The translations under genes and the position numbers were made by a program. Source: Thunnus maccoyii (Eukaryota > Chordata > Actinopteri > Scombriformes > Scombridae). From it: a stretch of 64,000 nt of DNA. This document shows, in pieces, positions 22,823 through 53,817 of this stretch (position 1 is the stretch's first letter; each line of letters opens with the position of its first letter). The DNA lies in contig NC_056547.1 in assembly GCF_910596095.1 (NCBI RefSeq), positions 23,703,647 to 23,767,646 on the forward strand, read 5' to 3'. A model generated the notes under the pieces. It was not told the origin of the DNA. It saw only the letters and a program-made list of their open reading frames with translations, and searched no databases.

Positions 22823-23383
22823 TTCAAAGGAGCATATTGAAGCCGAGTTGCTGTTTTGATATTTAAGACAGTGGGAAAACATCAATCTGCATCCTTCCAT
22901 GTATCAGGATACTGTCCATTTCATTTTTTTTCCCCACATAAAAATGTGAAGTTTTCTTGTCTCTCATATCAAATTCATCATTTCACCACCTTTTTTTAAT
23001 TACCAACCTCACTCTAACAACATCATTGACTTCAAACCTGTAGGCCTATCAGAGTACAGTTGTCCATTCTTTGCAGCAAACATCTGTCATTTTCCACTCC
23101 AGAGCTCCTGTGTGCTCCATATCTCCCCTATCTCTTATCCTCGTCAATCTCTGTCATTACCTTCAGTCTCCTTTATCTTCGCTCTGAAAATATGCTCCAC
23201 TGACTTCCGTCGATAATCACGGACATTCCTCTCGGATCTGGCCGACCATATCGATGCCTCCCGGCCCATCTGCTGGCCAGTGTCCCGCCATACCCTGTGG
23301 ATCAGCTGTCAAATATACTCATTAAAAAAATATGCGAGGGAGATATGAAATGGCAACAGTTGTAAGACCTATTATACAACTAT

Positions 23384-23384
23384 C

Positions 23385-23423
<39 letters not shown>

Positions 23424-23464
23424 CATTATTATTATTATCATTATTATTATTATTATTATCATTA
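23384..23464. repeat. (ATT)n trinucleotide microsatellite
   Basis: About 27 units of ATT with three ATC interruptions, ending about 670 bp before the irx1 ATG. Confidence 0.95.
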
Positions 23465-23719
23465 ATAAGTAGCCTAGTAGCAGATTTTTTAATATATGCA
23501 TTTCTTCTAAATTCGTGTAATTATTACTAATATAATAAGAATATGAGCATAACAATGTGTTACTGTTTTACCATACAGATTGACTGAGGTGCATTTGTTA
23601 AATAAAGCCATGCTGACCACAAAGAGGCAAATATACACTGCACAAACATGCACACACTTGTACACACTTCACAGGTTCCTCTCCTCTATAGACACAGTGA
23701 AGACTGCAGAAATTAGATC

Positions 23720-23776
23720 ACACACACCAACACACACACACACACACACGCACACACGCACACACACACACACGCA
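23720..23776. repeat. (CA)n microsatellite upstream of irx1
   Basis: Interrupted CA array with CG-containing units, immediately before the irx1 promoter region. Confidence 0.9.
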
Positions 23777-23814
23777 CGACCTAGGCTAACCAATGCACTA
23801 ATCGCCTGCCCCGG

Positions 23815-24132
23815 GCATAGGAGGAGCTTGGTGCTTAAGTAGGCTGCCAATCAGTCAGTCAGCTCCACATCCAGAAGCTCCTGCGGCCAGACGCACGCAT
23901 CATTCCGCACTCGAGGTGCCAAACTACGGCTCTGACACGACACCGGGTCGGTGGAAGTGGAGAAGTGGAAGCTTGACAGTTTCTAAAAAGGGGGACTCTG
24001 GTGATTTAGACACCCCCTTCATCCTGTTCGTCTTCTTCTATCTGGGGATTCCTACTTTCTCTTTTTTTTTCTCTGCCTGCTCTTGCTGTTGTGCGACTTT
24101 GACTTTGAGATTTACTGTACGCGTCTCCGGAC
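23815..24132 (+). promoter_or_regulatory. irx1: irx1 proximal promoter and 5'UTR
   Basis: This interval is more GC-rich than the (CA)n DNA before it. It holds a CCAAT box at 23847-23851 inside GCTGCCAATCAG, and CpGs around 23885-23950. No TATA box is obvious. The transcription start is not determined; most of 23900-24132 is probably 5'UTR. Confidence 0.5.
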
Positions 24133-27100
24133 ATGGCTTTCCCTCAGCTGGGGTACCCCCAGTTCCTTAGTGCCTCTCATGAGGTGTACGGGGGCGAGCG
24201 GCCGGCCTCTGCCCGGGAAGGAGCTACCGAGGGCGGCGTGAGCTCGTCCGCTACCGCCGCGGCTGTCGGCTCCATGCTGGGGATGTACGGGAGCCCATGG
24301 GCGGCTCATAACTACAGTGCCTTTCTGCCGTACAGCGGAGCAACAGACCTCGCCCTCATATCCCAGATGGTGAGAGTTGATACTTGTTCACCTCAGGCTG
24401 AAGCAGCTCAGGTGTTGATGATAGACCACTGATCTCTTGTTAATTGTAAACTAGTGCGCAATTTTCCCATGGCTCTATATGATATTTGAATATACTGATG
24501 GTTCGTTTTGTGCAATATTTGGCGGTTTACAATCGTTATTAAATTATAAAGTCATTTAACACAAATTGCCCGATGTCAGTTAAGATTTCATTATTCTGTT
24601 ATGTTTAAATGTGGATATATCCTGGGCTGTATTGAAAAATATTGATCCGTCACATATAAGACAAATTAATTATCTTATAGCATAAAACCAAACTTTACAA
24701 TTGTCGGTTCAGATTTTTATCTGTAGCTAAATTGCGTAAATCTCAAGGGAAAATCACTGGTAATTTAGACTTAACTTATATATTATCCTATATGTTTTAG
24801 AAAAAAACAGCTTTTATTCATGAGGAAAATACAATTAATTATGTAAGAAGACGAATATTGAAACATGAACATGTATTTCGTCTTTGTTCGTTAAAAATTA
24901 AAAATGACAAATATTTCACATTTAATAGCTTAATTAAAAGGAACCACTTCAGAAAAATAAAACAATTATTCTATGTTATTAATTCAGGTTATTATTAATT
25001 CCTCTTTTCCGGGTCAGTTGCCTTTTCAATGTCAAATTTATGAAATGCTGAAACTTTTAAAAACTTTTTTCTTGCTCTAAAAATAATAATTCACTTCAGT
25101 TTTGACGTGTAGTCTGCACTCAGAGAAGGAGTATAATTTTCCAGACCTGCCGCTCAACAAGTTGTCACTTCTCTCTGCAACATTTCAGGGCTCCCAGTAT
25201 GATCTGAAGGACAGCCCGGGCTCTCACCCAGCCTCTCTGCCTGTCCACGCCGCTCAAGGCTTCTACCCGTACGGCCAGTATCCGTACGGGGACCCGTCGA
25301 GGGCCAAGACGGCCACAAGGGAGACCACCAGCACCCTGAAGGCCTGGCTGCAGGAGCACCAGAAGAACCCCTACCCCACCAAAGGAGAGAAGATCATGCT
25401 TGCTATCATTACGAGGATGACACTCACACAGGTGGGTAATGCTCAAGTTCTGGCTTAAAACATTTGAAAAATATAGATCAGGGCTGCTTAGTAGGGGCCC
25501 CAACAGACCTTGAGGGACATTTGATAAGACGCACACCGCCCACTAATGCACATATCAACAGCACCTTTTGGTAGGCCTGTGTCTCCATACATAAGGATCA
25601 TAAATGACCATTTGCTTGTTTTAAATACATTCAAATGTTAAGTCCAGATCCTACAAGAGTAATACTCTATGAAACTACTTGTCACATCACTTATTATGAT
25701 AACACAACTGCCCACTGTGACTGATACTTAAATAAAGCTACATTTCCAGTGAAAAGTCTCGAGAGATTTCTTATCTCAAAGCTCTTTGTGTGATAATAAC
25801 GAATTAAACGGAGTGATGAGTAGTGAAGCATTTAGCATATTCAGTAATTTCATATTCCCAGTTTGCACCCCTGCATCGACAAACCAATGCATCTGATTTA
25901 TAATGCGTGAAAATATGTTTATTTTCCCAGGTGTCGACGTGGTTCGCGAACGCCCGCAGGCGGCTGAAGAAGGAGAACAAGGTAACCTGGGGCCGCAGCG
26001 CCGAGGACCGGGATGGACGCATCTTCAGCAGCGACAACGAGGACGAGCACGGCAAGAACGGCAGCGAAGACGAAGACGACGAGGAGGAGATTGATTTGGA
26101 AACTGTCGATATCGAGAGACCCGAGGAGCAGCGAGCAGGGGAGCAGGACTCCGGGAAGGGGGAGGGAGAGGCAGGCCTGGCCGCCGGAGAGGCCTCGGAG
26201 CCGAAGAGCTCGGAGAGCAGCAGGACGCTTTCTGTGGAGGGCCTGAGAAGAGTGGAGGCGGCTATTTCTCTCAATAAATCGCCCGTTGTCAAACTCGCTG
26301 TGGATCATTCTCCCAGCAGACAGGAGTGCCAGAGACCACCCCAGAGCAAACCCAAAATCTGGTCCCTGGCTGAGACTGCCACGGCCCCCGACAGCTCTCA
26401 CAAACCTTCCCCCGCGGCCCATGCGCACCACCCGGCTTTGGCCTCCGCCGGCCACCCGGCCTTACTCCCGGGTCATGGGATATATACATGCCAGATTGGC
26501 AAGCTGCAAAACTGGGCCAACGCGGCTTTTCTGAATGCCAATTCTCTTTTGAACATGAGATCGCTCCTCGGAGGGGCGCCGGCCGGACACCTGCCTCTCC
26601 ACGGCGCAGTGCCGGCTGCGCGTCATGACGCACGACCAGCGGTGACGGGCCCCGGAACTTCGGGGACGGAAGATGACAGTGATGAGGAGTCGTCAGGAAG
26701 CTTCAGTCCAAAAAGAGATGGTATGGACTGCACTTAAACATACGACGTTATGCAATTAATTTCTTTCCTGAACAGGCCTCAATAGAGTTACTTTGACGCA
26801 GGTGGCAACGAGAATTGATCCAGAAAAACCCTAAAACACGTCTACAGGACAATATTAGTATTATCTGCATAATTTCCAAGCGATTTTTCGAAAATAATTC
26901 GCACCATTAAATTGTTCAATAAATACATGGCTTTGTTTTTCTCTTTTTACAGAGGAAGAGAGCGACCACAGGCCTGATTCCCTGAAGTCCCCATTCCAGC
27001 TGATCACTGACAGGTAACCTCATGCATTTGAAATCAATTTGGCAGGCGTTATCAGCCTCAATTTCTTTCCACATATCTTCTGCTAAATTAACCTTAAAGC

Positions 27101-27655
27101 AGAGGTAAACACTGTAACACCTGACTGGGCAGACCTCAGCACATAAATCATGTGATTGAGTCCCCACTTTAACGCCTCGTCAGGCAACAGTCTAATATAT
27201 CCTGCGGGGCCCCCTAACACTGAGTTATCGCCGCCTGTGTCATTTAAATAATCTGCCGCCATTTATTCACGCCCCCCTCACTGAATGCAGCTAATGTATG
27301 TCAAAGAAAACGCTGATAGCAACATCATGAATGTAGTGGAGGGTGAAAAAGGCATAAAACAATTTACCTAGTGTCATTTTAATTTGCATAAATAGAGTTT
27401 CACATTGTTTTAGATTAAGTTTTAAAACTAAACTCATGGTATAAAAAATGTCAGTTATTTAAAGATGTGTGTATGCATGAGGATGTGTCTTTTTAAGGGG
27501 AGAAAACATGCTTTTCTGATCATGTAAATGTATTTATGATACAGGTTTAAAGATGTGGCACTTATTTCACTTCTGACTTTTTCTCTCATTGTGTTCTCTC
27601 CCTCAGACCTCACCATGGCACAGCAGCACAGCGAGTTCTGACAACAACATTATGA
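24133..27655 (+). CDS. irx1: Iroquois homeobox transcription factor Irx1 (probably irx1b)
   Basis: Five coding exons can be joined at GT-AG sites: 24133-24369, 25189-25431, 25931-26720, 26953-27013 and 27607-27655. Together they give exactly 459 aa (human IRX1 is about 480). The start has a good context (ACATGGC), and the N-terminus [14 protein letters not shown] is typical of Irx1. The TALE homeodomain spans about residues 117-177. It is split between exons 2 and 3 at Gln160/Val161, carries the PYP loop, and has a recognition helix with [10 protein letters not shown] (Asn167). An acidic stretch (about 195-215) ending in DEEEIDLE follows. The Iroquois-type motif [12 protein letters not shown] lies near 300-311, an Irx1-type block with IYTCQIGKL near 343-351, and the C-terminus is [12 protein letters not shown]. 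Irx proteins are nuclear DNA-binding regulators of neural, cardiac and kidney patterning. Assignment to Irx1 rather than Irx3 rests on both termini. The b-paralogue label is inferred from the absence of irx2. Unusual: the homeodomain has EHQK and ITRM where mammalian IRX1, from memory, has EHRK and ITKM. Confidence 0.95.
27160..27340. promoter_or_regulatory. Candidate conserved element in irx1 intron 4
   Basis: This balanced-composition block has no simple repeats, lies between the two tiny last coding exons of irx1, and contains TAATATAT, CATTTAAATAAT and a CAGCTAATGTATGTC stretch. It looks like a vertebrate CNE in texture, but conservation cannot be measured here. Confidence 0.3.
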
Positions 27656-27942
27656 GAAGACGAAGCAAAAAGAAAAGAGAAAGAAAGGAATAATTTTATT
27701 TAACGGAGAACAGTTTAATGAAGGCTATTTTTCTTTTTGACAGGGCAACCTGTCATAGTATTACTGTTTAGCTTCTACTTCTTGCAAAAGAGATTGTTGT
27801 TTTTGTCACAGATTTGCTTGTATCTCTCTTTTATGTCCTACGTTTTTTTTTTTCCTTCCTCCCTCTGTTGTGAATGCAAACATTGAAAATTGTAAATACA
27901 GGATATGAATTTGTCTTTAAAGAATATATTTTTTGGGAACTA

Positions 27943-27948
27943 AATAAA
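27943..27948 (+). terminator. irx1: Candidate irx1 poly(A) signal
   Basis: AATAAA lies about 290 bp after the irx1 stop, in an AT-rich 3'UTR with T runs. A second AATAAA near 28015 is an alternative. Confidence 0.55.
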
Positions 27949-30900
27949 TGTCATTATAGTCATTTATTACTGAAAACTTTTTCACTAATTGGAAATTGAT
28001 CATGAAAAAGAGGAAATAAAGAAGAAAAGCAGAGAAAATGGGTGTTCAACAGAAATATAGAAGTGACATCAATTTTCCAAAGGCAGTACCTAACTTTTTA
28101 TTTTCAGAAAGTTACGGGTTGACAAAGAATTTATGATGCTAATTTGCATTATGTTATAATCTATCACAGATACCAGTTTTAATGTGAATGTTATAATTAA
28201 TCCCAACATAGACATTCTCTTTTTATTTTCATCCTTTTAAGAAATTCATGTGCAGACACAGTGGATTTGATATTTTAAGGGGAAAATGATACATTTATAT
28301 GAATATACATATAATATATAAAAATATTATTGATTTCAGTTGGTGACTGTTTGCTTAATGGTGATCACAGTGTGCCCACCTTTTAATTGACCCCTTCGTC
28401 ACTGTGTCGAGTTAGTTTCACATTCTCGTTGCCAGCCGAACCATGCAGTGTCAGCCCTTTTTTTTTTCTTTTTTTTGCAAGAAAAGTATCGTCCTTATTG
28501 AAATCTGCACTCTCGCCAAAATTCTGAGACTTATGCCAACGCCTTGGAAGCCACTGCAAACCCTGCGGAAATTGAAATTGAAGATTTCCAGGACCTTATG
28601 AACCTGCGCCTGTGCTTTCAGCCAGGCCTTCTTGCTTTAATGTTGGATTATACCCCCTCAGTGCCACCACTGCCGCCTCTGAAATATGGATCAGACGGCA
28701 GGAAAGGCCAGCAGCCAGTATGGGGGCGGCAGCTCAGGGGGAGGTGGATGGGAGGAGGAGGAGAGAGGTGGGGCGGGGGGTTGTGTGTCACTCCAAGCCA
28801 TCCTTGACGTTCACAGGCCCAAAGACAGGGGGTAGAGAGAGAGAGAGAGAGGGAGGTGGGGGGTCTTAGGGCTGTTAATAGTGAGTATTTCAAAGCTGTG
28901 GCCCTATATTCATGCTTGAATTGGCAGCAGATCATGCATGGCACATGATTTGGGGTCCTCAGGCCTCTCAAGGGGCCCTGACAGTCTCAGGTTCATGTAC
29001 ACACAAAATTTAGATTTAATTGCAAATTTGAAGTTGTGCGAAATTTGGACACTGTGTTGAAAACCATTGAAAGTTAACTGATTTATTGTCACACTGAATG
29101 TTGATCATGTAATGCAGATATGATAGGTGACACTGTGTCAAGTGGCTACAGTCTGTCGGGAAAATATCTGCCACATTTCAAATACTTTTCAAATCATACA
29201 GATATAATTCAGAATTTGGATACAGTTAATCAAATGATCAGATAAGGTTAAATAGTCTGCAAAGATGCAACAAATAAGCATGTAGCCTTGTGCTGAAGAG
29301 CTACGATCTAATAGCTAAATATGAACAATTGAAATGAAGACAATATGGAAACTTATATAAGTGGAGAGCTGACTGGGCAGATGGACGGTCCGCAGTACAG
29401 TAAAATACATGTTCAAATGGTGATTAGAGCAGGCATGATACTCACTGCTGCCAGGTTTATGGACCTGGACATGTGACTCAATGCTGCCACCTCACTCTCA
29501 GAACAAGTAGAGCAGAATTGTAAAGATAAGGAGTGAAACATTTTATGCTCAGGTACAACACACTACCCTCCTCCGCAAACCTACTTTTATCAGCCAACCA
29601 AATATTTAATAATAGTAGAACATTATTTGGTGCAAATTTTGCACGGGTGTCATTTCAGCTAAAAGACATCTTTATAAATTCATTAGTCAAGTCAAATAAC
29701 CCAAAATCAGATACAACAAATTTGCCTCAAAGGCCTTAACAAACCGTACAGCATACGACACCTTCTATCTTTAGACTCTCAGTTTCAGAAGAGCGCTTAA
29801 AAACAAAACACTTTGACAAGAAACAAAGGGGAGAAATAATGTGTTTCCACTTGAGAATCGCTCAGTTTGCATGTGTACTTCATTCTACCTTTGGTCATTT
29901 GCCTCAAATGATCAAAAGATAATGCAGTGCCAAGTACTCCTATAGGTGAGGCCTTATCTACATCTAGTTCAGCCTTAATTAGTGCAGATTTGTACTTTTC
30001 ATGCCAGAAACTAATTTGCATCTTCATGGAGGATCAAAATATATATACATCCACTCTTGTGAGGACCTAAAATGCACCCCTGATGTCTGTGAAAACTGTA
30101 CTTAAATGTGGTCCTCTCACTTTAAAACTGAAGAATTGTTACAAATAGGGTCAAAAGTTGGCAACATTGATCACATCACCATTTAAAAAATGATAACATG
30201 GATCTAATAATTTATTATCTAATTTGTAGACAAACCAGACAAAAAATATAATTGATTTTCAATAGATTGGTGGATATTTCCTGATCATCACCTGGAAATC
30301 AGACTGAAGCACATTTGTATCATTCCATCAATGCATCAATCACACCATCACCTTTCACCACAGAAATGCATTAAGTCTATAATCAACCAACCAACCTGAC
30401 ATGGGTGTATGAGGTGTGGGAAATAATGGAGTTGTGACTTAAGCGGTGTATTCAGATGCATCCGAATTCCTCCTCTCTCAAAACCTCCTCGCTGTATATC
30501 TTCATCCATCCATCCTCTCACAGAGAGAGAAAGAATCAGAAAACAAGGGATAGAAAGAGCAAACTCGAGTCTAAAGAGAGCAAATGAGAGAGAGGGAGAG
30601 AGATGATGCAGTGAGAGCTGTCATTGATGTGAGAACAGCATGGAAGGGAGCCAGACACTTGAGGCCATTTTCACTTCCTCTGCCAACTCTGACAGACTGC
30701 CATCAGCACCGCTGAGGAGAATATCAGCCACTCTTTCTCTTGCACACTTCACTTTTTCTACACTTCATCCCAGCCAGATCGCGCTACTGTTCTTCCAAGT
30801 ACCCAAACAATATGTTATTCTTTCAAAGTTGGATATCAGTGAGCTTAGCATGATGGGGCTGAAAATGACATCAATCGGCTGTTTCATCAGTAACACAGCG

Positions 30901-31479
30901 CGTCCAGAACATGTTTTGTTATGAAAGGAGGGGGAAAAAGCGAGCAGATCCAAAATATGATTAGCGTTTTCTGGCTGTTGCAGCTAGAAACTTCTTCAGA
31001 GTCTCAAGTTTTTGCTTCATGTTGGTTGTTTGTCATCCAACCTGTCCCAAAACTTTTCAAAAATAGAACTGGTACACACTGTAAAGAGCCATAAGTGAGG
31101 AAAAACAACCACGATTCTTCTCGACGATACCCTGAGCTCTCCTGCGTGGAGTTTTTAGAGTCATATCAGCCCCTCAAACTCTCAGTGTGAATAGAGTCTT
31201 CATTGGTGCTTTGGTATTCTGATATAGGCTCTTTGGTGAGTTCTAATCCCTATTAAAGAGGCAGATTATGGAAGGGATTTGTCTTTGATTTGCCTGTCCC
31301 ACTGCTCTTTTCTGTCAGCATCTCGCTCTCTATATATATCCTTCCCTCGTTCTCTTTCTCTCTGCTTCTCTGTCTGTCTTGATGGGATGGTCATGGATTG
31401 AACAATGATTGCCTCCATGTGTCATCCCCCACACACTCCCACCCTCAGCCACCCTCCTGTGATTATAGCCACATGTATG

Positions 31480-31960
31480 AGGGCTCCCGGTTGCCTGAAT
31501 AGATTTGTTAAAGGCCCCCAGTGGATGAGAGAGGTCCAAGCTCCGTAGCCTGGCCCTCGTGTGCTCGACTATCCCCTTTAGAGGCACTCTGCATGGGGGT
31601 GAACTCCCTGCCAGTCCCACCCCCATCACCACCACCAATGTTACCCCTCCTACTCTTCTCCGCTCCTCCGCCACGCAGAGATAATCAGGCTTATGTAAAG
31701 ACGACGTGCTCTTTTGACAGTCATCAGCTCATCAGTGATCCAATCAAGCCCAAATCCGTCATTGTTCACCCCTCAAAGTGTCTCAAATCCGCTTGTGCAG
31801 GAGAGAGGGGCTGCACTCTTTATCCTGCCAATCACTCCTGACATTCCTGCAACTGTTGCCATGGCCTGGGGTCAGAGGTCGTGAAAACAGAGAGCATGAG
31901 CTGACTCGCGGAGAATGGCGGAGCGCTAAAGGAGGGACTCTCCACGCAACGGCCCCATTG
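31480..31960. promoter_or_regulatory. Candidate conserved non-coding element
   Basis: Repeat-free block with GATAATCAGGCTTATG, CATCAGCTCATCAGTGATCC and CCTGCCAATCACTCCTGAC. The 106-aa ORF overlapping it is Pro-rich at one end and is treated as chance. Texture-based call. Confidence 0.3.
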
Positions 31961-33379
31961 GTCAGCCAACGCAGGGGGTAAATGTAGACAAGTTAGGACT
32001 CTATAGCCCCGCTGAGAGGGCCAGCCGGACAGAAAGACATGGACAGGAGAGGAGAAAGGGGGGGGACGAGGAGGCGCAGAGAGGGCCGACGGAAGAGAAA
32101 GAGGGCAAGAGAGGTGTGTGTGGAGAAAGGAGGAAAAAGAGGGTTAGGGAGGGACAGTGTTTGATTGCCAAATAGGCTTTACAGAGCTTGACCTCGAGGG
32201 GCTTGGAGAAGAAAAGGCCTGACACACAGTTAAAGGCTCTGGAGACAAAATAATGAACACACAAGTTAATATTTCTTGAATTCTTAATGGAGTTTCTGCA
32301 CATAAAATCTTAAAAAATTGAGCATTTTCCCATAACAAGAAGTAAATTCTTTACCGCTGGAGCTCAAGAACAAGCCGCAAGCAAAGACAAATGTTTGATC
32401 TACGTGTGTGCGCATGCTAGCTGCTGAGCTGTAATTTGAAATGGAAATGTACCTCCCAACGCAATGAAGCTAATACATGTCATTGCAGGATAAGCGGGGC
32501 ACCGGGTTAAATCTGTTGTAATGTTGTCAAAAGAATTATTTTCTGTACCCAATGTATACGTAAGTGAGCAAATGTTTAGCCTAGACAAGATATCATAGGG
32601 AATTTACGCCATTCACTGTTCCTCCATAGGGATTAGTGGAATTAAGCGTTTACACAAAAGCAAAGTATCAAAACTCATGGGTAATTCAACAAGCTCCACA
32701 ATACTGAGTTTACAGACTGCTGCTTCTTAGCCTGCGTTTATTGTCGCGTTGCAGCTGCGAGTACCTTGCAGACAAATAGCAAACATTGTCAATGCCTTTA
32801 AAGGAGACAAATTTAATATACAGGGAAAATACACACAACAAATACTATGAAAGGGTGGGAGTGATAAGTCTTTTCTGTTGTTGTACGTCCATTCATGGCA
32901 ATAATCTGAGGGAAGAAGCAGATTAGGACAGAGGGAGGGTTCGTGGCTGAGTGTTCGCATCGCTGGCTCCTTTCAGCCATTTTGAAACAATGTTTATCCA
33001 CTGCACTGTTCTAGCGTAGCAACTTAGCGTAGTGTACTGCTGGGAGAGTCGTGAGGGGGCTGAGGACTCGCTGCGTCTTTGTTCAGCATCCATTGAGACA
33101 CGCTGATGTATTAGAGCGGGGCGGGGAAGCTGCACAAAATTAATCCATGTGCAATCTTGGTGATTTCAGTAATTTGTGTTTTAGAGTAGAGATATCTGGA
33201 AAATGTTGTAGAAAAATGAGGATCATCAAAGGGATTTATTTATACAGCCGTTGTTTGCACGTGAGGAAGAAAATCAGCACTGGCTGGACTGTTTTAGTGA
33301 TCAAAAATCACCAGTGGGACATGTAGACTGCACACCATCTGATCTACCGTCTATTATTGAGCTCTAAATGTTTTGTTAG

Positions 33380-34440
33380 GGCTAGTTGCTCTGTAGGTTG
33401 TCTTTTGGTCTGTCGGTCCACCAGTTTGATCCAGATGCTAAAATACCTAAAATTTTGTACAGACATTCATGGTATTAATTGATGTATCCTAATGACTTTG
33501 GTGATACCTTGACTTTTCATCCAGGGTTTCTGCAGGGTTCACCATGTTAAATTTAAGACTTTTAAGGACCTTTTTAATACCACATGGAATGCTATATATT
33601 ACCTTTAATGTACGTAAGTATGATGGAAAAGCAGAAGGGACAATATGACCTGTCACAACAATCCCACTTTTAGGTATGTAACGTCTCCTCGGCAGCCATC
33701 AGACACAAAAATATTTTAAACATTACTGACTGTGGCAGGCAGGAAAAAGTACTTAAAGTCCCCATTCCACTCAAAAATCTGTTTTTCTTCTTTTTACAGT
33801 TGGATGTTTGAGCTTCACTGTGCAGAATGATGTATGTGCAGAGTTTGACACTGGAATCATTCATCTGCTGAAAGTGGAAAGTTTCTCAGTGCTCACTGAA
33901 AAACTAATTTTAATGGGTGGGCCTATGAGCATGATTTGTGACACCACAACTAGTTTGGAAGCCAATCCTGGTCCAGTATGCAATTTACACACGTGTGATG
34001 TGGAAACTTGAAGCCTTTAGTGCACAAACACTGAGAATGAACTTTGCAGTGACGTAGGAGACATCTTGTGTCCAGCAGTTAAACTTCTGAAAGGAAAAGT
34101 ATTTGCATATTCATAGATTATGGAATTTTTAATGAGGGAGAAGGAGTAGATACCATTTCAAGGATTTTAATGAGGTAATTATACTTTTTTTGTGGAAAAA
34201 GCACAGCACAGTATCAGACACAGTATTATTTCAAGCACAGTAAATTTATATGTCTTAATACATGTCCTGAGGGGATCTTTAAGATTTTTGCACATAAAAT
34301 TTATGACTTTTCTATGGCTTTTTTTTTTTTAAGGAAACTGAATTTGTGACATTAGCATTTAGCTTAAAGCACTGCTGTGCCTGAATACAACCTCAAAGAG
34401 CTGCTAGCATGGCTGCAGACACTTAGTCTTGTCTTAAAAC
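33380..34440 (+). repeat. Composite interspersed repeat, split by another repeat
   Basis: The left part (33405-33525, with AAATTTTGTACAGACATTC and ATGACTTTGGTGAT) and the right part (34345-34435, with TAGCATTTAGCTTAAAGC and GCTGCTAGCATGGCTGCAG) match the two halves of the continuous repeat at 61425-61985, in the same order. About 800 bp between them (from GGGTTTCTGCAGGG near 33525 to about 34340) appears to be other repeat material. The ORFs here are not coding. Confidence 0.5.
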
Positions 34441-34858
34441 AAGTGAAAACAAATCTTCCACTACAGGAAATTTATTTCAACCTGTTTCCAATGTATAATA
34501 ACTTATATAAAGACTATGGGTATATCTTGAGAGAAGACAAAAATAGTGAAAAAACAATTATTAATTCTAGAAAATGTTTTAAGCTGAGCTGTATTCAAAA
34601 TCATTTAGGATTATTTCACTGCACAGACAGATTTTTAAAAACCTTTTTTTAAGAAAGTGATACATTTTGGGCCCAATAATAGATAAAAATGACAAGATAA
34701 GATGTTGATTCCAACAGTGTACAGTCACCTAGAGTGCAAAAAATCCCTCTGCTGTCTTTCACTTTGTTGATAATGATAGATGACTCATGGGTCACATATC
34801 TCCACAGTGTAATTACACATGAGAAGCGTGCATGTGCGTGTGTGCACAATCTGTCATT

Positions 34859-34869
34859 CACACACACAC

Positions 34870-34935
<66 letters not shown>

Positions 34936-34941
34936 ACAGAC
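34859..34941. repeat. (CA)n microsatellite
   Basis: About 80 bp of CA with one CG and a few GA interruptions. Confidence 0.95.
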
Positions 34942-35254
34942 AGAGTTGCAGAGTAATGTGAGTCCTCATTCATCTGCCCACGTCGTTTAGGGTAATAGAG
35001 CTTAATGGAGTATATTAACCCTGTCCAGCTTGCATCCCCTCTCAGATATGTGTGTGTGTGTGTGTGTTTTCATGCACGTGCACAGGGAAAGGGGAAACCT
35101 GCCAACTGTTTATCTGCAAGGGACACACACACACACTGGGGGAGCAGAGATCTGGTTTCCCACTGTCACAGATGCTTACCCGCCTCTCCATTAGTGATGT
35201 GATTGGAGTGGACATAGAAAACCAGCAGCCTCGTTCCCACAGGGGCAATCTGAG

Positions 35255-35480
35255 GAAATTATTGCCCCGCTCCTCTCTCGGGAATGTCAGCGCTCCAGAA
35301 AGAAGCACTTAATCGACTGCTATCACATGCAACTCTGTCAACCGCATAACGTTAGTTTTTGAGCATTTGGTGTGGATTAATACTTTGCAGAATGGTGTTT
35401 GATGGTACGTGATCAGTCATGGCACACAGTAAGAGGCCCGCGGGAGCTGCAGGAGATCAGACACTCAGCAGCGTTTACTG
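35255..35480. promoter_or_regulatory. Candidate conserved non-coding element
   Basis: Unique sequence between two CA arrays, with AAGCACTTAATCGACTGC and GGTGTGGATTAATACTTTGC. Texture-based call. Confidence 0.3.
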
Positions 35481-35661
35481 AGAATGTGACAAATAGATGA
35501 TCACTGGAGAATGAAGATTGATACAATAGTCAAGATCTTTAAGTCTGTCTATCTGTGTGATACAGGGAGGAAATCACTCAGAAGTAAGATGTTGGGGTGG
35601 ACACTGCTGGTGGCCAAAAGTCCTGGGAGGTCCAGTCAGACATGTAATATGAAATCTGCAA

Positions 35662-35662
<1 letters not shown>

Positions 35663-35696
<34 letters not shown>
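35663..35696. repeat. (CA)17 microsatellite
   Basis: Perfect CA run; a second, interrupted CA array lies at 35817-35853. Confidence 0.95.
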
Positions 35697-35699
<3 letters not shown>

Positions 35700-35817
35700 G
35701 CATGCATGCAGACAAGCAGACCTACTGTGTTGTCTTTGGTTGGTCACTTAATTGTGGGTGACCTTTTCACCCTGGTCAATAAGAACTGCAAGTTGAGCCC
35801 ACTGCACCGGCTAACAC

Positions 35818-35848
<31 letters not shown>

Positions 35849-37044
35849 ACACATCCCATCACCACCACCACAATAACATTGTAGTTCCCTGAACCACCAG
35901 AGGATGGCACCTGAGCTCTAAGTAGCAGTGCTGCAGTAGTTCTCTAAAGCACAGGGGAGAATGTATCCCTGACTCCACTTTTCATGGTATCCCTTGATCT
36001 AAGAATCTGAAGTGGACACTGCTGTAATGCTCTGAGATGAAATGTGGTCCCTGGGTGACTAGGATTTCAGGATTTTCTAGGATGATTCACTCTTAACTAC
36101 CATTTGGCTAATTCTATTTACTTCACAAGGAGATTCAGATAATTCTCGGTTTGCTTTGATTTTGTTTAACATAGAAATAACTCAGAGTACAAAGATTTAA
36201 GTATGACTTAACCCCGATGTTCTGTTTGTGCTCGGGTCCTGCCTAACAACTCAAAAACATTTGATTCATGTTATTGGAGTTTTATAACAGTCTAATTGAC
36301 CTTAAATATAGCAATAACACCACTATGTAGGATAACATGCTGTACATTTCTTTGTTGTGAATGACTTTTTGGCAAACAAAAGGAACATATATTTGCTCAT
36401 GCTTTCCCCATTAAACATATAGACCTAAAATATGAAATATTTAGTAATGCTTTAAGGTCATTTCTGTACTTTGTCACATGTATGTGTAAATGTATGAGCC
36501 CAAACCACTTCAATACTTTTCTACATAGAAAGAAGAAAGAGAGAATTATTTTTTTATATTTTTTATTATCATTATTATTACTTTACACAATCAACAGTGG
36601 GATCTGTGAGACCCCAAACAATGAGGAAGTAAAGCCAGTGTTCATGTCAACGATAGAGAAAATGTAAAAAATTTAAAAAATGGGCAGAAAATGAGTCAAA
36701 AATGAGTCATAAGAGCAGAGAGAATATAAATGGACAGAAGTCAAATCAGACTAAGAGAGATAATGGACAAATAAACAGATAAGGTAACAGACAGAGGATC
36801 AGTAGAAGAGTTAAGGTAGGTTTAAGTGTTTGTTAAAGGATGTATTGGTCCCTGTGGACTGAGGCTTGAAGAGCTGAATAATGTATGTCTGCTCCCAAAG
36901 TAATGAAGTGGAAGTGATAGGGAGGAATACGGCTGGCCTCTCGGGGCTCAACGCAAACTGTACACACTCTTAAGAGCTGCCTGTAGCCTAAACCTGTCTC
37001 CCTCTCTGCCTCTGTCTGTCTCTGTCCACTTCTTTCTCTCTCTC

Positions 37045-37578
37045 TCACACACACACATACACACACTGCTCAGCGGCTAAGAGGGTTAGCTTGTCTCTGT
37101 TCCCATATCCTACATCATTGATGAGGAAGACCAGGGCATTTATAGTATCCCACTCAGAGTTCAGCTGCTCCAGATCTTCCATGAGGCTCTTATTAGACAG
37201 GAGCAGAGCAGCAGCAGATAGTACGTATGGTGCTCGGTGATCAGACAGGTACTCGGTGTTGGCAGCCTTGTTTGTGGATCGGATCGACTCTGCTTTGCTC
37301 TTGTACTTGGTTGGAGCTATTGCGCTTAACAAGAGGCAACCACTGTAAGCTGTGTCTTGTGGTGAAAAGAAAGGGCTACTTTCATCCCTCATGATCCATT
37401 TATTGCTTGTCCTCCTCTGTCCTCTTCTTTCTCTCTGAATATCCCTCCTTTTTCTCAGAGAGCAAAAGCTGGGGGAAAAAAGGTGGAAAAGTTGCTTTGT
37501 GTTACCCCCATGTTCATTTGTCTGATGGTAGAACACTGCGAACAGAGGAGGTCTTGCGTTTTTGAAGACTTTTCTCAT
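37045..37578 (-). other. Unexplained 177-aa open reading frame or conserved element
   Basis: An uninterrupted minus-strand ORF of 177 codons with ordinary composition, unlike the repeat-driven ORFs nearby. Its second half (SLMEDLEQLNSEWDTINALV followed by FLINDVGYGNRDKL) reads like a protein helix region, but I recognise no family. The 3' end runs into a CA/GA repeat (VYVCV). It lies in the irx1-irx4 spacer, where enhancers are expected, so a conserved non-coding element that is open by chance is at least as likely as a gene. Confidence 0.3.
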
Positions 37579-38974
37579 TATTTCGTCTCACTTTAGCTCA
37601 GAACACCTTAAGATTTCTGTTTTGAAAAAAAGTAACATTTCAGAGGATATATTAAGAATTTTTTGTTTTATCTCCTTGTTGTGGTCAGGCTTATTTGCAT
37701 TCTTGCTGAGAGTTAGATGAAGATCGATACCACTTTCATTTTGTCCGTTCAATACAAGGCTACAACCAGCAGCCATTTAGCTTAGCTTAGCATAAAGACT
37801 GGGAGCAAGGGGGGGACAGCTATCCTGGATCTGTTTGAAGGTAACAAATAATCCGCCTTCCAGCACCTCTAGAGCTCATTAATTAACACGTCATATCTGG
37901 TTCCTGGGCTATTGTCATCACAGTGAGGTCTCCAACAACCAGCGAGACTCTAGGAAGTCACTGCACCCAACTGACACTGTCCTCCCAAGGTAGCGACAAC
38001 ATTAGTCATTTCAGCAAATCCCCCAAAACGTCATATGTTTACATTCAAGTGACAAAGCCCTCTAATGAACAGAATTATGACTCTTGTCTGTTGGGGGCAA
38101 AGGAGGAACCTGTGTGACTTTATGGAGACACAAAGTCTGCCAAGGGAGGAGGTTTGGGTGGATTGATGGGTCAACAAAATGTTGGACTTCAACATAGGCA
38201 ATCATTGTTCTGGAGGGCAATAACAAATGAGGAGGGCTTGATCCTGAGCTAAGAAATAGTCTGGCACATAACCATCTGCAAAACCACAAACTGTCATTTT
38301 TACTCTTAGGTTTTTGGATGGATTGATTTTGTCATCCCCTGACAGAGCCAAGTTAACTACTTCCCCCTTCTAAAGCTAAAGCAGCTGGCTTTAGCTTCAT
38401 ATTTACCATAAAAATGTAAGAATGGTATGCTATCTTATATAACTCTTGGCAAGAAAGTGTATTTCCCAATATGTCAAACTCTTCCTTCAAGTTTCTGAGA
38501 CACAAAAATACTATCTGAACAATTTTCTCATCTTTTGTTTGTCTGTCTCACTCAAGCTCAATAGACAATAAGGCTGTGTTTTCACTCAGGTTGGTAAAAA
38601 AACATTCTCACTTCAATTTGGGCCCTTCAGCACAACCCACTAAGATCTCTTTTCAAGGTGAAACAGCTAAAACCGAGATGAAGGCTCAAAAAGCATCTAC
38701 ATGTTAAACAGCGATTAAAATTGCATAGATTTCACACTTTAAGGCAGAAAATATTCAAATGCAGCGCACTGTGATTGAAAGAACCTGTGATTGGAGTTGT
38801 TTGGCCCTCTCTTCTGCACACTCTCTGCAAGTGCCTAGACTTCCACTTCCTCTCACATTAACATGCTTCTATCATTAACCCCCATGCCCCACCTACTGCA
38901 TAATAGCTAGAGCAGGATGCAGGGAGGAGAAAATAAGAATGTGTTTCCTTTCTTCTTTTTTTTTTTTTTTTTTT

Positions 38975-39260
38975 CTTGTGGAGCATCTTGAATGAATGAT
39001 TGATGTGAGGGGAGCAAGATCAGAAAGATATAATCACGGTCTAACGAACGCAGAGCCTTAAGAAATATATATACTGGAGGAATGCCATAAATTTATAAAC
39101 ACACCATATATTAATATATAAGTAGTCCATTGAATATTCAAAAAGACGGAAATAACATAATCTATGCACCTCTGTGTGCAATGCATGCTTTGTATTCATT
39201 CTTTGTGTACAAGAAGAAGGTAATAAAAGCTTGCAAGTTAAAACCTAGACTCTCTATAGT
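38975..39260. promoter_or_regulatory. Candidate conserved non-coding element
   Basis: AT-rich but complex block with GAATGAATGATTGATGTG, CGGTCTAACGAACGCAGAGC, CCATATATTAATATATAAG and ATGCATGCTTTGTATTC. Density of homeodomain-like and octamer-like words is high. Texture-based call. Confidence 0.35.
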
Positions 39261-40659
39261 CTGTTCATCTATACCTCACAAGTTTCCCCCTCCATAAATT
39301 ATAGGAAACCAAGATTAAACACAGTCATGTTCATTGTCACTGGCTAAACAAATTGCCATTCTCTTTGAGTGACATATGTTTTGTGTGAAGATGTGCAACG
39401 GCGGAACGGGGAGATAACTTCATTTCCAAAGCTTTGAGCACAGATGAGGGAGAGACAGTTAGTCCGTGTTCAGTATATGAGCACCTTTCACGGGACAAAT
39501 GGAATGTCAATCAAGCAGCGGTACACAGATGCCTTCTCCCCGGTGGGGCTGGAGATGCTTTCTGGTGATGCAGCTCTGTTGTTCCAGCCTTACTCTGGGT
39601 GCACTGGGAATATTTTGTCCTTTTACCCCCCCCACACATCCCCTCGCTCCATTTCAGATCCCCTGACTATTAAGAATTTCTTCTGCTCCCCAAGTTTGCT
39701 TCTTTAGGCTTTCCCTCCTCAGCACTTCCATTTCTTCATGTTGGTTCCGTTGCATGTAAAGGTTCATATTCAACTCTCCTTATTTCTTCTTCCACTCCAT
39801 AACTTCTCATGGTTTTCCCATTTTGACTCTCTTCCATTTCCTCCAATTTAAGGGACAATACGAAAATAATTGGGATGGGGAGGGGGATGGAGTAGGTTTA
39901 CTGTATACTTGATTTTATAAAAAAGCAAGACCTTTTCGAAACATTATCAATATTTTCTTTGGACCTTCTCCTTGAATTAAAAACAATACCTTCCTCTGCA
40001 ATATCGCAAAATAAGATATTTATGTTTACAGAATGAGCTTTATGGCTACTTGATGGACTTGAGCGCCGCAATATTTTTCACCAAACCCAGACACAACTTA
40101 ATTAAAAACTTATATAAATTAGATCAGATGATGCTACAGCCTGAAATGTATGAGATCATATTGCTTATGCTTGAGTCGCATGGCTGTGTCTGTTTCTTCC
40201 AGACAGCATCCAAAGAGCACGATAAGTCAAACATTCTTTGTGATGTAACAATTTAATCTTGAATAAATCATTCATTTGAATAAAAAATGAATCAAGAATA
40301 TGTATGGGATGAGGTAAAAGTTAAAAGATCCTCCCCGGCTCTCCCCCAAAAATAAACAAACAAACAAACAAACCCCAAAATCTTCCCCCTCAGCTGATCC
40401 CATCCCTCCCCTAATAATTTGTGTGCAGTTCCTGACTCCTTTTCTCTCTGTCTCATGTCATTCTACCCCTTTCCTTCCCTAAAACTCTTTACTTCTGCTC
40501 TTTTTGCACAAATTTATCCAAAGATTTTTGATACCACAATCCCCTCTAACATTTTCTCCATCGCTTTTATACTTGCTCTAGTCTTCCTCCTCTCCTACCT
40601 ATAAAAAAACCAGAGGTGGGTTGAGAGGAAACGAGTCAAGTGTTTCCACTTCACCAGGA

Positions 40660-40920
40660 CGGCTTAAGACTTTGTTATTAAAAACATGACAAGCCATTCA
40701 GTTGGTAAAGGTGCTTACTCAAGGGAATGCAGAAAGTGTTTATTCTTTGATTAATTTGCTTGGAGGAGACCTGAAATTTCCCCACTCATGAATATGTGGA
40801 TGACAGGGAGATTTCTCCGTGGTGACAAGTTATCTAAACTACAGGGCAAAACGATTATGCTAATATCAGGTTGTAGTCATCAATCATCTTGTGTCAATGT
40901 GGTGTCAACGCATGACGTTC
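40660..40920. promoter_or_regulatory. Candidate conserved non-coding element upstream of irx4
   Basis: Repeat-free block just before the (GT)42 tract, with TTTGATTAATTTGCTTGG and CGATTATGCTAATATCAG. About 0.7-0.95 kb from the irx4 ATG; possibly part of a proximal enhancer. Confidence 0.35.
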
Positions 40921-40956
40921 CTGATCCCCCCTCTGGCCATAGCAGTGTGTGTGTTG

Positions 40957-40958
<2 letters not shown>

Positions 40959-41042
<84 letters not shown>
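40959..41042. repeat. (GT)42 microsatellite upstream of irx4
   Basis: 84 bp of uninterrupted GT, the longest dinucleotide array in the window, ending 565 bp before the irx4 ATG. Alternating purine-pyrimidine DNA of this length can adopt Z-form. Confidence 0.97.
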
Positions 41043-41045
<3 letters not shown>

Positions 41046-41606
41046 TTTGGAAAGGAGAATTGATCACATTCTCATTACGCCTGGGGACTGTTGGGGGGTT
41101 GCACTTGCGCTTGTGTGGAGCTGTTCTCCTGGATAAGAGCTGAAAGAAAACTGGGAGGGAATTAATTAGGTGAGTTTCTTCTTCTTGATGTGAACACCGA
41201 GCTACGCGCTCAGAGTCCGGGCTGACGTCAGAGAGACGCGCCTTAAAACCAAAGAGCGCATCACGGAGAGATGCATGGTTTGATCACACACACTCGCTTT
41301 GGACTGTATGATAGCAAGGGCACTGTCAAGGCTGCAGTAGCTTAGTGAATGAAGAGAAACTGCAAGGGAGGAGCCAGGAAGTTACTTTAAAAGTCAGTTC
41401 ATCGTGGTGCGTAAAATGAGAGTTGTGCGTAAATGTATGCGTGCCTCTAGTTGGATACGGTGGTAGATAATATTCAAATTTTAAAAGCTGGAAAGTTGGC
41501 TGGCGGACTAGCTCTGAGCTAGTGTCAGAGGGAAAAGTCTACCTTTGGCACGGATGCTGTTGGATGTCTGCGCTCCTGATTTTGCCTCTTTGATCTCATT
41601 TGAGCC
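41043..41606 (+). promoter_or_regulatory. irx4: irx4 promoter and 5'UTR
   Basis: The interval runs from the end of the (GT)n tract to the irx4 ATG. It contains CpGs, a full CRE at 41223-41230, and a TTTAAAAG box near 41385 that could serve as a weak TATA element. The transcription start is unknown; the last 100-200 bp are probably 5'UTR. Confidence 0.45.
41223..41230. promoter_or_regulatory. Consensus CRE (TGACGTCA) upstream of irx4
   Basis: The perfect 8-bp palindrome TGACGTCA lies 377 bp before the irx4 ATG in CpG-rich sequence. This is the CREB/ATF consensus. Function is inferred only from sequence and position. Confidence 0.45.
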
Positions 41607-44393
41607 ATGGCTTACTCTCAGCTGGGATACTCCTACTCCACCACACCGCAGGTACGGTACATATGTTAAGCATGTTTTTCGTCATTTACCTTATTGAGTC
41701 ATAACTGTCATTCAAGTGATTGAAAAGCTAAGTAAGGGGAATGGTATATAGACGTATGCACCCACATAATAGCCATTCACACGCCATTCGACTCTTGATT
41801 TATTTACAAAATATGACACCTAGAGTAGCATAGTTTCATTTCTTTTCCGTGCATGTTTCATTTTTTTTCAATAATTAACTGAAATTATAACGTCTCAAAG
41901 TCCTAGAAAGCAAGCGTGAACATTTAAGACAATAGAAAACTGTAAAGAGATTATTTTACAGTATAAACTAAAGGTTTTTTAAGTTTTGGATTGAAAAAAA
42001 ATTAACAATTTCTTTCTTAGTGAAGATTCTGTGGGACAAATTAAATTAATCTCACAATTCTCTCCGAAGTTTCTGATGACCTCCAGCTCCTTGGCCGGTT
42101 GTCTGGAGCCGGGAACGACTCCGTCCCACCCGGCGCTGCGCTCACCGGGCCACCAACTCACCCCTGGTTCCAGCATCGGTGTCTACAGCGGCCCTTATCC
42201 AAAGAGCCAAGGTTACTACAACACCTGCACCAGCGACGCCACCGCTCTCTATTCCAGAGTGAGTTTCACATGCCATTTATAGTTTATTATCATTGTCCTT
42301 GTGCATTCATTTAAAAATGCGCAATTGCGCAGAAGTTGTTACTGACGTGCGAGGGAAGAAAGGCAGAAAATGTTATTATTTTTTTAAGGATTTTTCCAGG
42401 TTCATATGGTATTATTATCTGAGATAGAGAGAAAAACACCTCACAACAGATAAAGTCACTTCTTGGCTAAAACCACTCTTGACTACATTCCTTTGAAAAT
42501 ATGTTGGAATATTTTAGAGTTTGATATTGATTAGACATAATGTATATTAATGTTACATATTTTCCATTTTGCAGGGGCCACTAGAACCCAAAGACAGAGC
42601 TGCCTCTGTGCATGTGGGGACATCTCAGACTCCTGCCTACTATCCCTATGAATATACATTTGGACAATATCCTTATGACAGATATGGGTAAGTTAAAGTT
42701 AGTGGTTAGGCAAACGACTGCTTTTATTGCCCTTAAACTACACATTATTTTCTAAAATCAAAACCGTAATATCTTAATTTCAGATATGCTCGTCCCATAG
42801 GACTGCTGACTCTCTGATGAAAATGTTACTAGTCTGTAGCACGCTCATAGTGACCATATCTTCTTTAATGTCTTTGCATGAATACATATTATATCCTAAC
42901 AGTAATATCCCTACTGAGACTTAGTACTGGTACAGTGCGGTTATATTGTAGCCTACTTTATGGTATGGGTATGGGTAAAGCATCATTAAAAGGCTTTCAG
43001 GATTTCAGAAGTCAATAGTTACTCTTATTCCTCTAAATGACACAGGCCTTTCTTTATAGCAAATGTCTTTTACTTATTTCTGGAGAAACAGTAACATAAT
43101 AATGAATGTCACTACTTTGTTCAGGTATTCCTCCTCTGATGGAGCTTCACGTCGTAAAAATGCCACCCGAGAGACAACGGGCACCCTGAAGGCCTGGCTG
43201 CAGGAGCACCAGAAGAACCCCTACCCAACTAAAGGAGAGAAGATAATGCTTGCTATCATCACCAGGATGACCCTTACACAAGTAAGTTGTTAGCAAAATA
43301 TTTAAGATTTAAGGGCACTTGGGTTATTATAAGTTTAGTTGTCGGATAAAGGGTATTTGTCTTATTTTCCGTCTTTCTGTTTGCTTTTCTTACTTTCTTT
43401 CTTACCCTTTACACCTTAATATGTTTTTCCTTCAGTCCTTCTTTCTGCTCCCTATTTCCTTTCTTTCTTCCCTTCATTCCTGTATAACTTCCCTCCTTTT
43501 CCTTTTCCTATGCCAATGATTTTATTTTCCTTTTTGACTTCCATTCCTTCTCTCCCTCAGGTGTCTACATGGTTTGCAAATGCCCGCAGGAGGCTGAAGA
43601 AGGAGAACAAGGTGACGTGGTCACCGCGGGCTTGTAAAAGCTCTGACGACCGAGGCTGTGATGAAGACAGTGATGAGGCAGAGAAGCCACTTAAAACTGA
43701 CAAAGATCTTCCTGGTAAGTGGGACCGAAATCCATTTGTGCTTGGCTTAAATCAGCTGTTTGTAGAAAGTTTCATTACCCTACACAGACTTAGAGTTATC
43801 TGTGTCATTCCTCAGATCAACAGTGTGCAGACCTGCAGAGTGATCTTGAAGACTTCGACCTGCTGGAGTCTGATGCTTCTGACTGTGAACCAAAGCCACA
43901 GTTTCTACCAGAGGACAATGAAGCAAACCCAAACACAAACATCCGACATGGGCATCTCACACACAACCCAGATCCACTACACGGGACAGAGAGATTGACT
44001 CCTGACTGCCCCAAACTCACATCGGTCCAAGACCAAAACAGCACCTTCTATCCTAATCCAGATGTCCGAAGCTCAGACGCCAAGCCGAAAATCTGGTCCA
44101 TCGCTCACACTGCTGTGTCTTTGGACCCCAGCTTGCAGCCAGAATACCCTCCCTGTATGCTGTCATCGACCAGGTCCTCCTCTCCCGGGTATCCATCAAA
44201 TATGGCACTAACCAAGGCAGACAGGCAACAGGATTCACCGGTCGACACTCTCAGAGAATGGGTGGACGGAGTTTTCCATGGCCCCCCTTTTCAACAGCCC
44301 AAACCAGCTGCGTTGTGGAAAGGCTTAAATGAAGCAGTGATAGACAGCAGAACGCCAGGACAATCCTTTGTTAGGTCTACGTCATCTTTGTAG
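41607..44393 (+). CDS. irx4: Iroquois homeobox transcription factor Irx4 (probably irx4b)
   Basis: Six coding exons join at GT-AG sites: 41607-41651, 42070-42258, 42575-42687, 43125-43281, 43561-43714 and 43816-44393. They total 1,236 nt, or 411 aa (human IRX4 is about 519). The start has an optimal context (GCCATGG) and opens a tiny 15-codon exon, [15 protein letters not shown], the Irx4-type N-terminus. The TALE homeodomain runs from about 126 to 185, split between exons 4 and 5 at Gln168/Val169, with the PYP loop and [10 protein letters not shown] (Asn175). Irx4-specific signs follow: DLEDFDLLE near 229-237, [11 protein letters not shown] near 309-319, and [16 protein letters not shown] near 360-375. 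Irx4 is a nuclear regulator best known for ventricular heart identity. The protein is shorter than mammalian IRX4 because the low-complexity linkers are missing. The homeodomain carries the same EHQK and ITRM variants as the irx1 in this window, and KVTW instead of KMTW after it. Confidence 0.95.
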
Positions 44394-44998
44394 TGCAACC
44401 AGGCACCATCAATGGCGTTTTTCAAAGACTGCTGGACTTAAAACATAAAGTCTATATTTTGTTGTTGTGACTTGGTAATTGACTGTTCACTAAGCTCTGC
44501 CCTCTCTTGGTTTCTGTTGCTATGGTGGCAGATTTATCACTCTGAATTTTTAGTAATTTTTTAAACAATGAATCCTTCATTTCAGACACGTACATTAAAG
44601 CAGGTTTGTCATTTCTAGCCAACAACCGTTGATTTCGCCATCTGTAATGACGACATTGGTAGCAGATTTTATTAGCTTTGGTTAGCTAGCTAATTAACAT
44701 TAATGTTAATTAATTTATTAAAAAGATTGACTCCAGCTTACTTTTTAATGTTTCCAGCTGAGTCATTTTAAAATGAGAGTCCTGTAAAAGGGGTATTAAC
44801 TATGCACTTAATGGCTACATGCATAATATCGTGATAAAAGACTGAGGCTAAAGCCTCATGTCCCACGCAGGCAAAAAGTCAGCATCCCCACTAGTTATAA
44901 AAGACGTACAGGCTTCTAGGATTAAGACGTATTTGGGAAACGTAATGCTGTCTTGGAACATTGGCTGGGGTTACTGGAGTGCAAATTTCCCCAAACCC

Positions 44999-45004
44999 AA
45001 TAAA
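44999..45004 (+). terminator. irx4: Possible irx4 poly(A) signal
   Basis: This is the first clear AATAAA after the irx4 stop, about 600 bp downstream. A nearer ATTAAA around 44594 is another candidate. The 3' end is uncertain. Confidence 0.3.
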
Positions 45005-52990: not shown

Positions 52991-53817
52991 TTGTTCACGT
53001 TGTTTGAGTTTGTGATAAGACTGTCTCGCTGGGGACTTATGGTAGGGCTGTGTTCGTGTTTGGTAATGAAGCTAGCAGGTCAACCCTGTCATGCGCGTCT
53101 CCTTAGCATGTTGCATAGCTGTCCTGAAGTATATACCGGGCCATGGTATTTACATTTTATGTTACACAGGCTTTAAAGCATATCACTGATTTCGAAAAGG
53201 TTGCTAAATATTTTGTGAATCTGGTCATATAGGGGCACAGTTGTCTGTATAGTGCACACTTTACTCATTTGTAGTCATTTGAAGTATTGCTGAATGGTAT
53301 TGCTACTACAAAATGTTGATGCAAGATTGCCTAATTAATGTTAGGAGTACGTGTGTTGATAATCTCGCAATATTTAGGCAGTTTTGCGTTCAGGCAATAG
53401 TTAATCTTACATTAATTCAATGAGAGGAGAAAATGTGATTTTAATAGTTTTTAGTAAGTTAACGTAAATGAACTTTTCCTCTGGAAAAACTATATGAGAC
53501 ACTTATGGGACATATGAGACTATTACTCAAAGTAGAGCAATTTTAAATATCATTTCTTAACTTTGGGTCAATTATTTATGCCTCTGACAAAAAAGGATAA
53601 TATGATGGGCAAGCAAGTAAATGCATTCAAGGTTCATTTCTGTCAGCTGTGACAAAAAAGCTTAGAAAATATGTTTCATGCTGCCTTGAAAAGTATAAAA
53701 ATGTAAATGCATGATCTCTAAAACACAATCTTGTGTCATATATATTGAAACATCTACATTTTCCAGCTATAACTTGTGAATAATCTGTTTCTGTCCATCT
53801 CTTTAGGCTTTGACATC

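Follow-up and report, generated by a model that had tools for sequence, protein, structure and literature searches.

Gene conversion limited to homeobox parts has been described for the linked Dlx genes of Capitella teleta, where a 150-base tract includes part of an intron (PMC3199776), and the same paper mentions concerted evolution of the hexapod engrailed and invected genes. In a related model, intron transfer, one paralogue acquires an intron, which recombination then carries to the equivalent position in the sister gene; the table of a 2012 review gives three indirect cases, from Mycosphaerella, Aspergillus and Chironomus, and none from a vertebrate (PMC3443670). Vertebrate Irx genes, whose six types have been placed in the common ancestor of bony vertebrates, lie in clusters and pair as Irx1/3, 2/5 and 4/6, with extra clusters in teleosts (Kerner et al. 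2009, PMC2674049). Here we analyse irx1b and irx4b, two neighbouring Irx genes in a window (the whole 64,000-base stretch of DNA under study, C15:23703647-23767646 of a 782-Mb fish genome), and conclude that old and repeated gene conversion, restricted to the homeobox, has probably homogenised their homeoboxes, a process that we predict also for the other Irx clusters of this fish.

This locus resembles the Dlx genes of Capitella in that linked homeobox duplicates appear homogenised within the homeobox, and differs from that single pair in offering three clusters at once together with a candidate newly shared intron (PMC3199776). It likewise resembles engrailed and invected, homeobox paralogues kept alike by conversion, although those are insect genes and not Irx (PMC3199776). 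As the intron transfer model would have it, an intron position is identical in two paralogues and absent from their other relatives (present in two of the ten Irx genes found in one genome); unlike in that model, the two introns no longer resemble each other. Gene content, pairing and the extra teleost cluster agree with the account of Kerner et al., whose main text does not use the words intron, exon, gene conversion or concerted (PMC2674049). The literature that we searched, mostly by titles and the beginnings of abstracts, yielded no report of conversion among Irx genes or of an intron in the irx1b or irx4b homeobox.

The intron that irx1b and irx4b alone have in common is stronger evidence for homogenisation than their run of silent identity. 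The irx1b homeobox consists of a 5′ part at 25309-25431 (forward strand, codons 1-41, ending in TLTQ, from translation and alignment) and a 3′ part at 25931-25990 (codons 42-61, from translation), and the irx4b homeobox, from translation, of the equivalent parts at 43159-43281 (codons 1-41, again ending in TLTQ) and 43561-43620 (codons 42-61), also on the forward strand. Between them lie introns of 499 bases in irx1b (25432-25930) and 279 bases in irx4b (43282-43560), both in phase 0, both with GT-AG ends and at the identical position between TLTQ and VSTW, which we take to fall between homeodomain residues 44 and 45 in the standard numbering with W48. By comparison, the homeobox is unbroken over residues 2-61 in all eight of the other Irx genes found in this genome. 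Conversion possibly carried the intron between irx1b and irx4b. A repeat origin of the irx1b intron was considered and dropped, its sole match in the genome being its own locus, with no second copy.

The intron is probably not peculiar to this species. Twelve open reading frames (ORFs) elsewhere, ten irx1b-like and two irx4b-like, pass from apparent intron sequence into VSTW, and the fishes that supply their best named-protein matches are presumably percomorphs. A weaker indication is given by seven further irx1b-like ORFs that start at the VSTW codon. The irx1b model of the gadiform Merluccius polli contains extra residues exactly at the junction of TLTQ and VSTW, and therefore the irx1b intron, to judge from these sequences, is likely to predate the split between codfishes and percomorphs. 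Two irx1b models are unusual in this region: isoform X2 of Oreochromis aureus joins exon 1 directly to VSTW and has an incomplete homeodomain, and the Caranx model is without the VSTWFANAR stretch, either of which may reflect exon skipping or a poor model.

The homeodomain residues present a similar picture. Within residues 2-61, positions 6, 15 and 59 distinguish irx1a from irx4a, and at each of these irx1b and irx4b agree, in the irx4 state at 6 and 15 and in the irx1 state at 59. They also share new states at residues 18 and 36, and their sole difference over residues 2-61 is at residue 8 (residue 1, T and N, differs as well). The G at residue 8 of irx4b in the window recurs in 12 of 134 irx4-type proteins, Scomber included. 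For comparisons across species we counted only proteins that fit the homeodomain pattern, which were 98 of the best 120 listed for irx1b and 134 of the 142 proteins among the matches listed for irx4b. Six of the former are irx1 of non-teleosts or irx1a (three from sturgeons and one each from bowfin, bichir and, as irx1a, smelt), and all six have R18; two of them bear the name IRX-1b in their source records. The other 92 irx1b proteins listed have K18 in nine cases, seven of them from named otocephalans, and Q18 in 83, while the irx4b-type proteins listed comprise 11 with K18, 122 with Q18 and one with H18. All 11 of the K18 irx4b proteins come from named otocephalans (Clarias and Clupea among them, the others being species that we take to belong there) and have M59, and the remaining irx4b proteins listed have V59. 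Residue 18 is therefore shared in a lineage-specific manner, K with K in the listed otocephalans and Q with Q in nearly all other listed teleosts. For example, Brachyhypopomus gauderio has K18 in both irx1b (P0097) and irx4b (P0254), and the euteleost Esox lucius has Q18 in both (P0078 and P0236). The 22 irx1b rows that did not fit the pattern are fragments, models lacking the domain or variants, and of those checked P0030 and P0077 carry Q18; the eight non-fitting irx4b rows are four irx4b pieces or mis-splices, of which P0199 carries Q18, and four other proteins.

These distributions bear directly on the age of the process. The preliminary description of this DNA, made from its letters alone, had proposed a recent copying of one homeobox onto the other, and a run of 46 identical bases, together with homeodomains that differ at one place over residues 2-61, is what a conversion in the lineage of this species would leave. 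The motifs that it had noted in both proteins, EHQK, ITRM and KVTW, are indeed common to the two; yet many other listed fishes also have the shared residues, and EHQK, present in both genes in nearly all listed euteleosts, is therefore an old shared state. Moreover, 20 of 54 comparable codons differ between the two genes and the homeobox introns cannot be aligned. Thus homogenisation is supported and its recency is not: a recent event, which we consider very improbable, is refuted for the residues, leaving room at most for a recent short tract limited to codons 8-23.

Trees of the homeobox point to conversion as well. We compared 183 bases of the ten Irx homeoboxes of this one genome, in which irx1b and irx4b group together with ultrafast bootstrap (UFBoot) support of 87 on the whole homeobox, 92 on codons 23-61 and 56 on third positions. 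The tree expected from descent (1/3, 2/5, 4/6) was rejected by the approximately unbiased (AU) test in all three data sets (p=0.011, 0.010 and 0.005, respectively), whereas a tree grouping genes by cluster was not (p=0.60, 0.42 and 0.33). When irx1b alone was moved to irx4b in the descent tree, the whole homeobox did not reject the result (0.157), but third positions (0.005) and codons 23-61 (0.014) did. The tree model assumes even composition, and the GC content at third codon positions (GC3) ranges here from 0.70 to 0.98; the unlinked irx5b and irx7 also group in the homeobox trees (65-88%).

Outside the homeobox the genes follow descent as far as they can be compared. With the homeodomain masked, irx1b scores 157 bits against bowfin irx1, 127 against irx1a and 34 against irx4b, and irx4b scores 153 bits against carp-family irx4b and 34 against irx1b. 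The bowfin homeodomain was left unmasked, but its partners were masked, so these remain scores of the flanks. Masked irx4b scores 24 bits against irx4a of the same genome, a low value explained by the single irx4a exon that entered the comparison. The kind of check that the preliminary description had suggested, separate trees for the homeobox and the remaining coding sequence, thus came out within one species as it had expected for conversion: the tract groups the paralogues, with 56% on third positions, while the flanks match by orthology. In line with its statement that the genes are hardly alignable beyond the homeobox, a BLASTN comparison of 23001-28000 with 41001-45000 recovered the homeobox exons, over 122 and 63 bases, and otherwise gave only matches of 28 and 33 bases (E=0.001) and seven to a simple-repeat stretch.

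Silent states of the Irx homeoboxes go by cluster rather than by descent when three clusters are taken jointly (P about 0.0002). The clusters compared were C10 (irx1a, irx2a and irx4a), C1 (irx3, irx5a and irx6) and C15 (irx1b and irx4b), with irx5b and irx7 as lone genes, and codons were counted as comparable where the amino acid was the same, M and W being excluded. Mean silent identity was 0.70 within clusters (seven pairs) as compared to 0.52 for twins from the genome duplication (three pairs), 0.60 for the six pairs of types 1/3, 2/5 and 4/6, and 0.56 for the remaining pairs. Permutation of cluster labels gave P=0.0003, and 0.0000 in 20000 shuffles after correction for GC3; the effect also persisted when, within each pair, codons were exchanged at random between positions encoding the same amino acid (P=0.0002) and on leaving out any one gene (P at most 0.0055). 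Among the six genes of C10 and C1, the split by cluster was the best of ten possible 3+3 splits and the pairing by descent ranked 14th of 15 matchings. Each of the three clusters uses a codon of its own at codon 40 and again at codon 53 (P=0.0001). As a control we took the eight best of 101 Dlx matches in this genome, which form four linked pairs and over 47 codons showed no cluster effect (P=0.26 and 0.78; mean 0.39 for the same type as compared to 0.42 within clusters).

The likeness of irx1b and irx4b on its own is a different matter. The preliminary description had called attention to identical runs of 46 bases (25331-25376 and 43181-43226, forward strand), 22 bases (25962-25983 and 43592-43613) and twice 14 bases, all of which are present, and had argued that silent likeness exceeds chance. 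This is borne out only in part. A run of at least 46 bases is rare when codons are sampled according to the combined usage of all ten Irx homeoboxes (P=0.005), but 34 of 54 comparable codons are identical where 30.5 +/- 3.4 would be expected (P=0.19); a simulation with the codon usage of irx1b and irx4b themselves gave P=0.001 for the count and P=0.000 for the run. Longer runs join irx3 and irx6 (60 bases), irx3 and irx5a (51 bases) and irx5a and irx6 (51 bases), all in C1, and the silent identity of irx1b and irx4b ranks 14th among 45 Irx pairs, with 13 higher and one equal. For these two reasons the 46-base run is weak evidence, and it was dropped. The higher pairs include irx3-irx5a (0.82), irx3-irx6 (0.77) and irx5b-irx7 (0.73). 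Equal silent identity among all Irx paralogues, which the preliminary description had named as an outcome that would speak against copying, is thus seen in part, in several pairs, mainly cluster neighbours, that are as alike or more. In C1, irx3, irx5a and irx6 share the codon CTA at codon 53, and their silent likeness exceeds that of irx1b and irx4b. As for irx5b and irx7, lone genes on separate contigs, they are alike at 33 of 45 codons and have many GC-rich silent states in common.

Codon preference and protein constraint alone might then make the homeoboxes alike, with no homogenisation at all. The identical-codon count and the 13 more similar pairs agree with this, as do codons 1-22, where 44 of the run's 46 bases lie and no excess is seen (15 of 19 identical as compared to 15.8 from shuffled positions), and the passing of one test by the unlinked irx5b and irx7. 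Such forces cannot, however, yield an intron common to both genes or a residue paired as K/K and Q/Q, and the cluster effect persists after correction for GC3 and for the codon choice of each gene and is absent from Dlx; we therefore regard this explanation as improbable. In a GENECONV-like run test on all variable columns irx1b-irx4b came first (P=0.001 uncorrected, global P=0.047), partly because of the shared amino-acid changes, and on silent columns only it gave P=0.074 uncorrected. Taken alone, the silent evidence for irx1b and irx4b is only suggestive.

Against conversion stands a series of further observations, several of which also speak for parallel evolution, in which the same selection on neighbouring genes would have changed the same residues and introns would have been gained independently at a ready site at 44/45. 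The DNA comparisons rest on one species. After correction the silent identity of irx1b and irx4b ranks third of 45 pairs, modest when taken alone, and in a test of silent changes shared against the consensus of irx1a, irx2a and irx4a this pair (P=0.014) is surpassed by the unlinked irx5b-irx7 (P=0.004); composition can therefore mimic conversion, and we gave that test little weight. Considered singly, C1 is clear (first of 120 triples) and C10 (17th of 120) and C15 (third of 45) are not. Codons 23-61 carry the cluster signal (P=0.0002), whereas codons 1-22 do not (P=0.65); this boundary was set once the data were known, and the first part contains fewer codons. The codons at 40 and 53 are not exclusive, since irx5b and irx7 have the same codon as C10 at 40 and the same as C15 at 53. 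One bait of the irx4b search carried K18 and the best 120 matches were used, which favours K-bearing rows, and therefore otocephalan irx4b proteins with another residue 18 could have been missed. The residue changes are short steps that could recur: residue 18 is L in irx7, K also in an insect Irx and H in irx4b of Neogobius. Residue 36, compared within genera and sometimes between different species, changed out of step in the two genes, which fits parallel change better. For example, in Gadus, Merluccius, Polymixia, Lepidogalaxias and Centroberyx irx4b carries R and irx1b carries K, in Lucifuga it is irx4b that carries K and irx1b R, and in Diretmus both carry K; Clupea irx4b has R36, whereas its listed otocephalan kin have K. 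The two homeobox introns show no match beyond 10 bases, although no similarity is expected given the old age that we infer. Finally, the junction context, CAG followed by GT, is present in irx1b and in seven of the eight other Irx genes as a ready insertion site, and an intron at homeodomain 44/45 has been reported for NANOG (PMC2211742).

Parallel evolution explains residue 36 and might explain the other residues. It would nevertheless need the two genes to agree at five residues, including one that is K in both genes of one lineage and Q in both of another, and two intron gains at one site in neighbours with none in eight paralogues, and it leaves the silent states by cluster unexplained. 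It is the main rival, and on this balance an unlikely one. Gene conversion between cluster neighbours, limited to the homeobox and continuing over a long time, gives a single account of the intron, the trees, the silent states and most of the residues.

Under conversion, the homeobox would be the sole stretch similar enough for the neighbours to pair, and repair would copy short tracts between them. Tracts may have passed in both directions, with irx1b taking the irx4 state at residues 6 and 15 and irx4b the irx1 state at residue 59. The intron would have been gained once in one gene and copied to its neighbour along with a tract, after which the two introns would have diverged. Residues 6 and 15 may have been homogenised before the split of otocephalans and euteleosts, 18 and 59 on the euteleost line, and 36 later and not in step. 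Direction, intron donor, dates and number of events are all matters that we infer.

More broadly, it is possible that in every Irx cluster of a vertebrate the homeoboxes are kept alike by recurrent conversion, even though the remainder of these genes had diverged before the ancestor of bony fishes, and that in one teleost cluster a newborn intron was thereby copied from one homeobox to its neighbour, which would be intron transfer in a developmental gene of a vertebrate; we advance this generalisation tentatively. If true, a shared DNA-binding domain would keep the binding preference of the two regulators the same even as the remainder of each protein diverges. Homeodomain trees, which are used to sort homeobox genes (one figure of PMC2674049), can mislead if neighbours overwrite each other's homeoboxes. 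With sequences already in public databases, the locus also allows intron transfer to be tested in vertebrates. Variants in and around irx1b have been concluded to contribute to forebrain divergence in Malawi cichlids (PMC8217251).

Both genes lie on the forward strand. The five coding exons of irx1b (24133-24369, 25189-25431, 25931-26720, 26953-27013 and 27607-27655) join at GT-AG sites into a single open frame of 459 amino acids, which over its full length is 94% identical to IRX-1b of Echeneis naucrates. The six of irx4b (41607-41651, 42070-42258, 42575-42687, 43125-43281, 43561-43714 and 43816-44393), likewise with GT-AG ends, give a single open frame of 411 amino acids, 92% identical over its full length to IRX-4b of Scomber scombrus. 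The Pfam family Homeobox_KN (PF05920, the TALE homeodomain) scores 64.2 bits in irx1b and 63.4 bits in irx4b at a cut-off of 24. Their coding regions are 13,951 bases apart and their homeobox starts 17,850.

The eight further Irx genes found in this genome, named from homeodomain and flanks, are irx1a, irx2a and irx4a on C10, irx3, irx5a and irx6 on C1, irx5b on C5 and irx7 on C4; neither irx2b nor irx3b was among the Irx matches of the genome search. In the twin cluster on C10 (22.34-22.64 Mb), irx1a is on the strand opposite to irx2a and irx4a and lies 291 kb from irx4a, with irx2a between them. From these differences in strand and spacing, and with no match for irx2b or irx3b, the b cluster is likely to have been rearranged, inverted and compacted relative to its twin. 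Downstream of irx4b, an ORF at 53776-54186 on the forward strand of the window carries the Pfam domain Ribosomal_L36 (71.8 bits) and is likely to be mrpl36.

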